Shown: positions 79 to 37,478 of the stretch, piece after piece | How the letters are laid out: each line of letters starts with the position of its first letter | How positions within the stretch are numbered: the stretch's first letter is position 1 | NCBI GenBank assembly: GCA_026125895.1 | Contig: JAHCKG010000021.1 | Coordinates: 1-64,000, forward strand | Direction of reading: 5' to 3' | Length of the DNA: 64,000 nucleotides | DNA from: Pseudolabrys sp. | Lineage (GTDB): Bacteria > Pseudomonadota > Alphaproteobacteria > Rhizobiales > Xanthobacteraceae | Notes under the pieces: generated by a model | Database searches by the model: none | What the model was told of the DNA's origin: nothing | The model's input: the letters and a program-made list of their open reading frames with translations, nothing else | Position numbers and translations under genes: made by a program

Positions 79-690
79 AAGCACCTCGTCTGGATCGCCG
101 AGGACATGGCGCTGGCCGAAAGCGGCGCCCCGCATGGCGCCGGCCTCGATGCTTTCAGTGTGTCGCCGCAACGGCTGCTCACCGTCGCCGTCGCCCATCG
201 TCAGGATCTGATGTGGACGATGGAAGAGGCGCTGCGCTCCCGCGCCGTCGGCGCCGTGATCGGTGAATTGCGTCATGGCGCACTCGATTCCGTCGCCGTG
301 CGCCGGCTGTCGCTGGCGGCCGGCGACAGCGGCGCACTCGCTTTCCTGCTGCGCGCGCAGCCGGCGCACGACGCTTCCACCGCGGTGACGCGCTGGACGG
401 TGGGGACGGCACCTTCCGTCATTCCGGGGCGCCGCGAAGCGGCGAGCCCGGAATCCATAAGCCCGGCTGCGGCGTATGGATTCCGGGCCCGCGGACTGAC
501 GTCCGCGTCCCGGAATGACAGCGACCCCGGCGCGCCGCGCTTTGCCGCTCACCTCACTCGCAATCGCCGCGGCCCGGCCGCGTCCTGGATTCTGGAATGG
601 AGACCGACCGATGAGCGCTTCTTCTTCGCCGCGCATGCTGAGCCTGTGGCTGCCCCGCTTCGCCACCGATCGCATCAGAAGGTTGCGTGA
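1..690 (+). CDS. imuA: ImuA C-terminal part (SOS mutagenesis accessory protein), 5' end outside the window
   Basis: The reading frame is open from base 1 without a stop until the TGA at 688-690, so the gene begins upstream of the window. Residues from about position 85 onward (HLVWIAEDMALAES, LMWTMEEALRSRAV, VRRLSLAAGDSG, HLTRNRRGPAASWILEW) match the C-terminal half of ImuA, a RecA-like protein that works with ImuB and DnaE2 in error-prone translesion synthesis after SOS induction. Two palindromic repeats are read through in frame: one covering about 1-78 and one covering about 414-527. The latter encodes an Arg/Ser-rich insert containing ASPESI and ASRND. The gene overlaps imuB by 80 bp. Family identity is fairly sure; whether the repeat-laden protein is functional cannot be seen. 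Confidence 0.85.
   Translation, partial: NAPSPARRRFASAGDLSPYTGRGENKKHLVWIAEDMALAESGAPHGAGLDAFSVSPQRLLTVAVAHRQDLMWTMEEALRSRAVGAVIGELRHGALDSVAVRRLSLAAGDSGALAFLLRAQPAHDASTAVTRWTVGTAPSVIPGRREAASPESISPAAAYGFRARGLTSASRNDSDPGAPRFAAHLTRNRRGPAASWILEWRPTDERFFFAAHAEPVAAPLRHRSHQKVA
412..528. repeat. Palindromic repeat (CATTCCGGG...CCCGGAATG class) inside imuA
   Basis: Outer arms GTCATTCCGGG (419-429) and CCCGGAATGAC (510-520) are inverted copies. Inner arms CCCGGAATCCATA and TATGGATTCCGGG form a second nested stem. The same architecture is present in dnaE2 at 4530-4637. It adds about 38 codons to imuA without breaking the frame. Confidence 0.88.
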
Positions 691-2314
691 GTCTTCCTTA
701 TCCCTCCCCTTTAGGGGAGGGTCGGTGAGCGAAGCGAACCGGGGTGGGGTTACTCACTTTCGAACGTCGCTCCCCACCCGGCCGGCTTCGCCGGCCACCC
801 TCCCCCTGCGGGGGAGGGATGAAGAAGAGCTCCCCCTCGTCGTCGCCGGCAAGCGCGGCAATGCCGATGTGCTGATCGCAGTGGATGACACCGCCGAACG
901 GCTTGGCCTGCTGCCGGGTCTGGCGCTGGCGCAGGCGCGCGCCATGCATCCGGCGCTCGATGTCGTGCCGGAAGACGCGGCCGCCGATGCCGAACTGCTC
1001 GAGAACATCGCCGACTGGTGCCTGCGCTATACGCCGCTGATCGCCTGCGACGCGCCCGACGGATTGCTGCTCGATATTTCCGGCTGCGCGCATCTCTATG
1101 GCGGCGAGCGCCGGCTCGTCGCCGATCTCGGCCGCCGTCTCGCCGACGCCGGCTTTGCCTATCGCATCGCCATTGCCGGCACCATCGGCGCGGCCTTCGC
1201 GGCTGCGCGTGACGGCCGGCCCGATGCCTATGCCAATGGCGCGGAGCGCGACATCCTTTGCCCGCTGCCGCTCGGCGCCTTGCGCCTGCCGCCGCCGATG
1301 GTCGCTTCGCTCGGCCGCGTCGGCCTCAAATGCATCGGCGACATCATCGACCTGCCGCGCGCGCCGCTCGCCGCGCGCTTCGGCGCCGGATTGCTGCGCC
1401 AGCTCGACCGCGCGCTCGGCCGCGAGCACGAACCGCTGACGCCGCGTCTGCCGGTCGCGCCTTATGTCGCCGAAAAACGCTTTCACGATCCGATCGCGCG
1501 CGAGGAAGACGTGCTCGGCACCGTCGAGATGCTCGCCGTGCAATTGTCCGCCGCGCTGGAGCGGCGCGGCGACGGCGCCCGCCGCATCGAACTCACGCTG
1601 TTCCGCACCGACGGCGCGCTGCGCCGCATCGCCGCCGGCACGGCACGGCCGCTGCGCGACCCTTCCGACATGCGCGCGCTGTTTGCCGAGCGGCTGACTG
1701 CGCTCGCCGACGAGCTCGATCCCGGTTTCGGCTTCGACATGGCGCGGCTGTCGGTGCTGGTGGCCGAACCGGCGGTGCCCGAACAGATCGGCATCGGCGC
1801 CGCCGAGGATGCCGGTGAAATGGTGCGGCTGATCGACCGGCTGAGCGCTCGGCTCGGCGCGCAACGCGTGCGGCGTGCCGTGGCGCAGGACAGTCATATC
1901 CCCGAGGTGGCGTCGGTATCGCTGCCGGCGCAGATGACCGGCACCGACGACGGCTGGGCCGCGTTCGACCGCTACCGCGCCGAGGTCGAGCTGGCGCCGC
2001 GGCCGCTGCGGCTGCTGTCGCAGCCCGAGCCGATCGAGGTGGTGGCCGAAGTGCCGGACGGCCCGCCCTTGCGCTTCAAGTGGCGGCGCGCGCTGCACGA
2101 CGTCGCCGCCGCCGACGGCCCCGAGCGCATCGAAGGCGTGTGGTGGCACGAACAAGATGACGCGCGCGCGCGCGATTACTTCCGCGTCGAAGACAGAAGC
2201 GGCCATCGCTTCTGGCTGTTTCGCGCCGGGCTGTATCGCGACCTGACGCGCGCCGATGTCGCGCAGGGCGCCGCCGCCACGCCGGCCTGGTTCGTGCACG
2301 GGATGTTCGGGTGA
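611..2314 (+). CDS. imuB: ImuB, catalytically inactive Y-family polymerase-like translesion protein
   Basis: This is the DinB/Y-family-like partner that bridges DnaE2 to the beta clamp in the ImuA-ImuB-DnaE2 mutasome. From ATG 611 (MSASSSPRMLSLWLPRFATDR) the protein is 567 aa. Recognisable blocks are LSLWLPRFATDRIRR at the N-terminus, GLLPGLALAQARAMHP, LENIADWCLRYTPLIA, and DGLLLDISGCAHLYGGE around residues 150-165. A palindromic repeat read in frame inserts about 42 residues at residues 29-72, between the first strand and the GKRGNADVLIAVD segment. Removing it gives about 525 aa, the usual length. The start chosen restores the family N-terminus and overlaps the imuA end, as expected for coupled genes. 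Expected regulation is by LexA, but the promoter lies outside the window. Confidence 0.92.
   Translation: MSASSSPRMLSLWLPRFATDRIRRLRESSLSLPFRGGSVSEANRGGVTHFRTSLPTRPASPATLPLRGRDEEELPLVVAGKRGNADVLIAVDDTAERLGLLPGLALAQARAMHPALDVVPEDAAADAELLENIADWCLRYTPLIACDAPDGLLLDISGCAHLYGGERRLVADLGRRLADAGFAYRIAIAGTIGAAFAAARDGRPDAYANGAERDILCPLPLGALRLPPPMVASLGRVGLKCIGDIIDLPRAPLAARFGAGLLRQLDRALGREHEPLTPRLPVAPYVAEKRFHDPIAREEDVLGTVEMLAVQLSAALERRGDGARRIELTLFRTDGALRRIAAGTARPLRDPSDMRALFAERLTALADELDPGFGFDMARLSVLVAEPAVPEQIGIGAAEDAGEMVRLIDRLSARLGAQRVRRAVAQDSHIPEVASVSLPAQMTGTDDGWAAFDRYRAEVELAPRPLRLLSQPEPIEVVAEVPDGPPLRFKWRRALHDVAAADGPERIEGVWWHEQDDARARDYFRVEDRSGHRFWLFRAGLYRDLTRADVAQGAAATPAWFVHGMFG
697..832. repeat. Palindromic repeat (CCCTCCCC class) inside imuB
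   Basis: Arms CCCTCCCC/GGGGAGGG at 704-722 and CCCTCCCC/GGGGAGGG at 808-828 flank a region with CCGGCCGGCTTCGCCGGCC. It is in frame with imuB, stop-free, and related to the elements in dnaE2 (5506-5630) and uvrB (53396-53512). Confidence 0.85.
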
Positions 2315-2324
2315 GTTTGCTTTT

Positions 2325-2405
2325 ACCCTCTCCCCTTGTGGGAGAGGGTGGTCCGAGCCATGAGCGCGTTTACGCGCGTCATGGCGAGGACCGGGTGAGG
2401 GGGAA
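2325..2405. repeat. Left inverted copy of the palindromic repeat flanking the DUF559 gene
   Basis: A 27-bp outer arm at 2325-2351 (itself a CCTCTCCCC/GGGAGAGG hairpin) and a 15-bp inner arm CCGGGTGAGGGGGAA at 2391-2405 both recur, inverted and identical, at 2781-2807 and 2753-2767. Between them lies a CATGAGCGCGTTTACGCG module (2359-2376) also found at 57795-57812. The inner arm provides GAGGGGG directly upstream of the DUF559 ATG. Confidence 0.9.
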
Positions 2406-2810
2406 ATGCCCAAGTATCGAGTGAGTGAGTTCAAACGTGATCAGGCCAAGGCGTTGCGTCACGCATCGACCGATGCCGAAGCCAGGCTTTGGCGACTCCT
2501 CCGCTCAAGACAATTGAATCACGTCAAGTTTCGTCGCCAGGCGCCTTTCGGACCGTGGATTATCGACTTTGTTTCATTTGAAAGTCGATTGATTGTCGAA
2601 GCTGACGGCAGTCAGCATGCTGAAAGCGATCGCGACAGAAATCGCGACCTCGATTTGCAGAACCGAGGTTTTCGGATTCTGCGTTTCTGGAACAACGACA
2701 TTTTGTTCAACACGAATGGAGTGCTTGAGGCGATCCTGAGCGAGCTTGAAAATTCCCCCTCACCCGGCGCGCTGCGCGCGCCACCCTCTCCCACAAGGGG
2801 AGAGGGTTAG
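2406..2810 (+). CDS. DUF559 endonuclease-like protein, embedded between imuB and dnaE2
   Basis: A 134-aa protein of the DUF559 family, which has a Vsr/restriction-endonuclease-like fold. Visible family residues are FRRQAPFGPWIIDFVS (Asp around residue 58), LIVEADGSQHAES (Glu/Asp/His around residues 69-76), and GFRILRFWNNDIL. The body is clearly AT-richer than its neighbours and uses codons such as TTG, ATT and AAT that they avoid, which suggests transfer. The gene is flanked by inverted copies of one palindromic repeat. Its last 19 residues and stop are encoded by the right copy, and dnaE2 starts at the very next base. A nicking or repair nuclease role is only a family-based guess. Confidence 0.85.
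   Translation: MPKYRVSEFKRDQAKALRHASTDAEARLWRLLRSRQLNHVKFRRQAPFGPWIIDFVSFESRLIVEADGSQHAESDRDRNRDLDLQNRGFRILRFWNNDILFNTNGVLEAILSELENSPSPGALRAPPSPTRGEG
2753..2807. repeat. Right inverted copy of the palindromic repeat flanking the DUF559 gene
   Basis: Inverted relative to 2325-2405, with the 15-bp and 27-bp arms identical; the middle is GCGCGCTGCGCGCG instead of the CATGAGCGCG module. It encodes the C-terminal tail of the DUF559 protein, and its arm AGGGGAGAGGG sits 4-14 bases before the dnaE2 ATG. Confidence 0.9.
2797..2810 (+). promoter_or_regulatory. Repeat-derived ribosome-binding site for dnaE2
   Basis: AGGGGAGAGGG ends four bases before ATG 2811 and is the only Shine-Dalgarno-like sequence there. 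It belongs to the right palindromic repeat, so translation of dnaE2 here probably depends on the inserted element. The DUF559 gene has the same arrangement at 2397-2403. Confidence 0.6.
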
Positions 2811-6608
<3,798 letters not shown>

Positions 6609-37359: not shown

Positions 37360-37478
37360 AGGCGCGCTCCCTCTCCCCTGCGGGGAGAGGGCCGGGGTGA
37401 GGGGGCCAGTGAGCCGAAAGCTTGTAACCCCTCACCCGCCCGCCTGCGGCGGGCGACCTCTCCCTATGGGCGAGGTAA
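37360..37478. repeat. Intergenic palindromic repeat (two units)
   Basis: CCCTCTCCCCTGCGGGGAGAGGG plus CCGGGGTGAGGGGG (37370-37403), then in opposite order CCCCTCACCCGCCCGCCTGCGGCGGGCGACCTCTCCC (37428-37465). This is the same class as those at 1-78 and around the DUF559 gene, here between convergent genes. Confidence 0.8.

Follow-up and report, generated by a model that had tools for sequence, protein, structure and literature searches.

Introduction

According to the sections of PMC4666352 drawn on here, repeats of the BoxC/PIT/triplex motif (TM) class have been known since the 1990s and are found in over 260 genomes, where they are abundant and mostly intergenic; Escherichia coli K-12 has 23, including five inverted pairs that each join a type A to a type B repeat. 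The same sections give gene contexts without a mobility gene and call the origin of the motif unclear, and the words DUF559, ycjD and endonuclease are absent from that part of the main text. We analysed a 64,000-nt stretch from Pseudolabrys sp. (contig JAHCKG010000021.1, positions 1–64,000, forward strand; hereafter, the window), in which two inverted repeats of this class enclose a gene of the DUF559 family. Our data suggest, with a probability that we place at about 0.65, that this is a repeat-nuclease unit, i.e., convergent BoxC/PIT/TM palindromes bracketing a nuclease that recognises its own repeat type, which would make it REPtron-like but built on an unrelated nuclease.

The window repeats share with BoxC/PIT/TMECO (Table 1 of PMC4666352, in the portion considered) the same stem and tail, the arrangement in inverted pairs and the intergenic location. 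They differ from BoxC/TM in that their second loop is a long hairpin, and a triplex there is only putative, whereas hairpin folding was computed. A search confined to open-licence papers found no literature linking DUF559 with BoxC-like repeats; three candidates for such a link (PMC8861277, PMC7251935 and PMC9454445) were rejected, since the portions at hand concern clustered regularly interspaced short palindromic repeats or another DUF. Alphaproteobacteria also have CGTC-tagged repeats, described in the relevant part of PMC3733652 as palindromic and without associated transposase genes; the window repeats are likewise palindromic without transposase association, but their sequence class is different.

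A close parallel in architecture is the system of repetitive extragenic palindromic (REP) sequences and REP-associated tyrosine transposases (RAYTs), in which, as far as the consulted parts of PMC8266576 and PMC8049555 describe it, the gene lies beside inverted palindromes, gene-less pairs are scattered elsewhere, enzyme and repeat co-evolve, the enzyme is mostly resident and the number of repeats correlates with the gene. The DUF559 system likewise combines a gene flanked by inverted repeats with gene-less inverted pairs elsewhere. However, RAYT is an HUH (Y1) tyrosine nuclease whereas the window gene is DUF559, and REPs bear a GTAG tag whereas the window palindrome consists of a CCCTCTCCC/GGGAGAGGG hairpin and a G-rich tail, and neither arm, as read, contains GTAG. 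Because both enzyme and tag differ, we regard the system as REP/RAYT-like without being a member. RAYT (PF01797) was found in none of 20 genomes of the genus, the window's own included (an E. coli control was positive), which rules it out as the driver of the repeats in this genus.

Results and discussion

Anatomy of the unit

The unit spans 2325–2807 (483 bp). Its left arm (2325–2405, forward strand) comprises a first hairpin (2325–2349), an inner hairpin (2350–2392) and the tail CCGGGTGAGGGGGAA (2391–2405); its right arm (2753–2807, reverse strand) comprises a first hairpin shared with the left arm (2783–2807), a shorter inner hairpin and a tail (2753–2767). The arms are inverted, with the 25-nt hairpins outermost and the G-rich tails towards the gene. 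A 27-nt stretch at 2325–2351 (forward strand), which carries the BoxC/TM-class stem, is a perfect inverted match to 2781–2807, as is the 15-nt left tail to 2753–2767. The window arms carry the features that mark BoxC/PIT/TM membership, a CCCTCTCCC..GGGAGAGGG hairpin and, after it, a tail of GGGTGAGGG type. As single-stranded DNA, each arm folds, on either strand, 4.8 to 7.8 standard deviations below shuffled sequences, and of 421 positions scanned in the window, the gene has the highest inverted score (27), whereas 1.9% reach 16 or more.

The enclosed open reading frame (ORF; 2406–2810, forward strand, 134 aa) matches DUF559 (PF04480) with an E-value of 6.5e-37 and 126.2 bits, against a Pfam cut-off of 20.6. 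Its ATG directly follows the left-arm tail, its codons from about residue 117 lie within the right arm, which doubles as coding sequence for the C-terminal residues, and its TAG stop falls just after that arm. The GC content of the ORF core (2406–2750) is 51.3%, compared to 65.5% for the window, and none of 1274 windows of 345 bp, taken every 50 bp, falls to this value. The first-pass annotation of this DNA, made from the letters alone, had described a low-GC DUF559 gene between perfect inverted arms of 27 and 15 nt that abut the start codon and supply the stop region, and these coordinates and compositions bear it out.

In alignments of 26 and 24 sequences, E25, D54, E65, D67, H71 and D77 are invariant, which makes them putative active-site residues that may act in catalysis. 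An AlphaFold2 model of the window protein is confident (predicted local distance difference test score 86), and the solved structures nearest to it are 3hrl (an endonuclease-like protein of Neisseria gonorrhoeae), I-Bth0305I (a homing endonuclease) and Vsr. Since mitoribosomal proteins tie with Vsr, the notable matches are the first two. As modelled, the DUF559 fold resembles that of I-Bth0305I and is of the Vsr/homing type. With both enzymes it shares, besides the fold, a conserved E, D, H, D pattern, which we take to be the motif "EDxHD"; it differs from them as a single domain within a repeat pair. Homing endonucleases home into a specific gene, and Vsr repairs T:G mismatches. DUF559 copies lie at many unrelated sites and not, as a classic homing endonuclease would, in one specific target gene.

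DUF559 genes are flanked by inverted repeats

All five DUF559 genes of the window's own genome are bracketed by inverted repeats, whose type varies by locus but matches across each gene, one type being common to two loci. DUF559 is present in 138 of 149 genomes of the window's family. We scored flanks at 75 family loci, comprising the five above, the 30 with the best scores (one per genome) and a further 40 picked by hand (20 drawn largely from genomes in which one repeat type is scarce or missing and 20 largely from multi-copy ones). At a threshold of 16 for the inverted flank score, 70 of the 75 qualify (the exceptions are L035, L036, L038, L069 and L081). Across the phylum, the best match of each of 29 further genomes gave 13 qualifying loci, against 0 of 87 control windows. 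In a multi-phylum protein scan of named genomes, 64 of the 80 best among at least 558 relatives reach 16 (63 without locus L223, which scores only through poly-C), against 1 of 225 controls. Among these loci are representatives from alpha-, beta- and gammaproteobacteria and from single metagenome-assembled genomes labelled Desulfobacterales, Methylomirabilota, FCPU426 and Chlamydiae. A control using mismatched left-right flank pairs was uninformative, since the repeats resemble one another (16 is reached by half of 1190 such pairs). The association between DUF559 and inverted repeats is well supported, contrary to the possibility, allowed for in the first-pass annotation, that DUF559 genes elsewhere would lie near repeats only by chance.

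At one locus, on pSymB of Sinorhizobium meliloti Ak57 (L171), DUF559 stands between two complete and almost identical inverted repeat pairs, a nested arrangement with an inverted score of 104. A search of S. meliloti with this locus gave one full match and, for the most part, partial or insertion-sequence-side matches, with no empty site among the matches listed. The phage records searched held no match.

Gene-bearing and gene-less repeat pairs

The reverse test started from the repeats. The general CCTCTCCC pattern was sought in six genomes, and the listing of 150 sites spans three of them in full and part of a fourth. Among them are 38 convergent neighbour pairs within 4 kb, along with 11 divergent and 6 tandem neighbours. 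The tail-to-tail gap of the convergent pairs is 12–44 bp in 30 cases, 328–399 bp in seven and 3018 bp in one (L197), and all seven pairs of the 328–399 bp class enclose DUF559 (L004, L045 and L192–L196; the gene at L192 is frameshifted and matches in part). The pattern does not admit a left inner loop as long as that of the window's own unit, which is therefore not counted here. A second class, ACCCTCCCCTGGAGGGGGAGGGT, occurs in 48 of the 149 family genomes; 150 listed sites from a longer list contain 37 convergent pairs (and 2 divergent and 1 tandem), with hairpin-to-hairpin gaps of 85–161 bp (31 pairs) or 432–500 bp (6 pairs). All six of the latter hold DUF559, four by coordinates and two by Pfam. 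Summed over the sites listed for both classes, 61 convergent pairs are too close for a gene, and 13 of the 13 pairs with gaps of 328–500 bp enclose DUF559. An anatomy in two forms, gene-bearing and gene-less, is thus well supported.

Co-diversification, inheritance and copy number

Across the 70 flanked family loci, protein identity correlates with repeat similarity (Mantel r 0.43, reached in 0 of 5000 permutations). Repeat sharing is 0.37 between copies in the same genome versus 0.41 between copies of like identity in different genomes, and it rises to 0.77–0.83 for copies of at least 65% identity in different genomes. That repeat type tracks the DUF559 lineage, not the host genome, and co-diversifies with it is well supported.

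Cross-genome pairs of at least 62% identity have flanking genes in common in 62 of 105 cases and do not in 43 (7 of these with short flanks), whereas all 11 pairs of at least 80% protein identity do, and are therefore orthologous loci. The gene is thus mostly inherited in place and, over longer times, has been relocated together with its repeat. It is under purifying selection (dN/dS, the ratio of nonsynonymous to synonymous substitution rates, is 0.07–0.21 in nine close pairs; dS was saturated in 3 of 12 pairs), and few copies have duplicated recently within a genome (of 44 same-genome pairs, 1 exceeds 60% identity).

One repeat type was counted in each of the 149 family genomes. The median is 0 in the 11 genomes without DUF559, 2 in the 28 with weak matches only and 13 in the 110 with strong matches, and copy number correlates with the DUF559 match (Spearman 0.52; 0 of 5000 within-genus permutations). 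There are exceptions, with 12 copies in one genome without DUF559 and none in eight with a strong match. As with REP doublets forming hairpins (REPINs) beside a resident RAYT, the form present in many copies is mainly the gene-less repeat pair.

The imuB–dnaE2 junction in relatives

The unit lies between an imuB-like ORF (515–2314, forward strand, start codon uncertain) and a dnaE2-like ORF (2811–6608, forward strand), which by domain encode a Y-family polymerase with IMS domains and a polymerase III alpha subunit, so that its reported position at the imuB/dnaE2 junction is correct. DUF559 occupies this junction in the window genome and in one congener (G110). It is absent from the 38 further junctions readable by eye (24 of 29 loci in one set, L107, L116, L119, L120 and L121 being unreadable, and 14 of 16 in a second, L176 and L184 being unreadable and L190 and L191 outside the count). 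Because of this absence we consider DUF559 a lineage-restricted occupant of the junction, and the alternative that all relatives carry it at the same place does not hold. Among the 38, G448 has a gene-less inverted pair of similar type upstream of dnaE2 (L180), its right arm degenerate, G030 has a gene-less pair of another type, G440 has one hairpin, and G034 and G442 have a different repeat. The clean empty site sought across relatives did not appear, as the junctions read hold other repeats or different spacers and no exact empty allele of the window copy.

Insertion signatures and E. coli

As the first-pass annotation had reported, no direct target duplication is found at the window unit. 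Over 107 flank pairs (k = 2 to 5, offsets 0–13), there is no clearly preferred offset and only a diffuse excess (for k = 3, 430 versus 351 ± 22), and on this ground we rejected a DDE insertion sequence or a miniature inverted-repeat transposable element. The outer boundary shows a pyrimidine/T bias in the last ~7 nt and little beyond.

The E. coli homolog of DUF559 is ycjD (1,351,407–1,351,760), between sapF and fabI, with repeats only on its 3' side; motif no. 9 in the portion of Table 1 of PMC4666352 considered (1,351,204–1,351,239) is ~170 bp away. At least 80% of the ycjD query is found in 3364 of 5426 E. coli genomes, and 333 have no match at all. In two strains without ycjD (L202 and L203), a TetR regulator and resistance-nodulation-division efflux genes stand on the fabI side where K-12 has ycjD. 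Among 60 evenly drawn rows, the 39 with ycjD have 2–4 further repeat places (median 3) and the 21 without have 1–5 (median 1), a difference (p 5e-4) to which we give little weight because it is confounded by phylogroup. The hrpB–mrcB repeat pair is missing in three strains (L321–L323), where insertion and deletion are indistinguishable because ~15 bp of sequence has also been replaced. At the same place in E. coli 07_3337 (L324), an internal deletion in the pair has left one hairpin, which fits palindrome-driven deletion.

Other palindromic repeats in the window

A further repeat of the BoxC-like class lies at 37369–37437 (hairpin 37369–37391, tail 37395–37402, opposed tail 37430–37437). Paired palindromes of ATTCCGGG type occur within coding sequence at 416–530 (the ORF before imuB) and 4528–4640 (dnaE2), the latter apparently in frame and adding ~35 residues, in the manner of Rickettsia palindromic elements. 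More palindromic repeats appear in frame within the imuB and dnaE2 ORFs (698–820, 5505–5620 and 5865–5945), and several repeat classes therefore tolerate or target the mutasome operon.

A nuclease that may mobilise its own repeats

Since gene and repeats usually co-occur in the relatives examined, the DUF559 nuclease is a candidate for the enzyme that spreads the repeats, and its mobilising them would be the most economical reading of these data. The unit with DUF559 would be the resident, autonomous form and the short, scattered gene-less pairs the non-autonomous one. The nuclease, being Vsr/homing-endonuclease-like, may bind the folded end (a hairpin, perhaps a triplex) of its cognate repeat in single-stranded or supercoiled DNA and nick at or beside it, and strand transfer or break repair could then place a copy of the repeat at another site and would leave no fixed target duplication. 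The first-pass annotation had drawn the analogy to REP/RAYT and called the unit a compact mobile one. Architecture, co-diversification and the copy-number correlation uphold the analogy, from which movement of the repeats by the nuclease is extrapolated; mobility fits the many-copy gene-less pairs but is less well supported for the gene itself, given its orthologous close pairs, purifying selection and rare recent duplicates.

Alternatively, DUF559 could be a structure-specific enzyme, now domesticated, whose role is to trim or resolve hairpin or triplex repeats (e.g., at stalled forks) and which needs the repeats without multiplying them, the repeats having spread through replication or repair errors. 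Vertical inheritance under purifying selection, the Vsr-like repair fold and the internal deletion that one E. coli strain has within a repeat pair are all consistent with such a role, but it leaves unexplained why the gene sits inside a repeat pair, why gap sizes fall into two sharply separate classes and why like pairs occur at unrelated loci, and we consider it unlikely.

DUF559 could instead be a selfish gene, akin to a homing endonuclease, that has repeatedly invaded gene-less pairs spread by other means, the repeats being its target and not its progeny. The fold, nearest after 3hrl to a homing endonuclease catalytic domain, and the gene-less pair at the same junction in G448 suit this scenario; the scarcity of counted repeats in genomes without DUF559, the co-diversification of repeat type with nuclease and the absence from the 20 genomes of RAYT, the one other candidate enzyme tested, argue against it and make it quite improbable. 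A simple coincidence, with repeats gathering in intergenic space where DUF559 genes happen to lie, might be invoked because the repeats are numerous and lie mostly between genes (PMC4666352, in the part considered) and the imuB–dnaE2 junction hosts other repeats too. Yet control windows reach the score in only 0 to 2% of cases, and the reverse test, from repeat pairs to the enclosed gene, rules out a chance hot spot, every 328–500 bp pair among the sites listed enclosing the family, which leaves this explanation with scarcely any credibility.

The repeats were already known, whereas their tie to a DUF559 nuclease seems to be new. Whether it extends to DUF559 proteins as the mobilising enzymes of BoxC/PIT/TM palindromes across bacterial phyla is, in our judgement, an even question; they would then form a second REPtron-like system that evolved independently, with a homing-endonuclease-type PD-(D/E)XK nuclease in place of the HUH transposase copying hairpin (or triplex) repeats around the chromosome. 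If true, the link would provide a testable role for both the BoxC/PIT/TM repeats and the widespread DUF559 family, and since E. coli K-12 carries both ycjD and 23 such repeats (a count from the part of PMC4666352 considered), it could be tested there.
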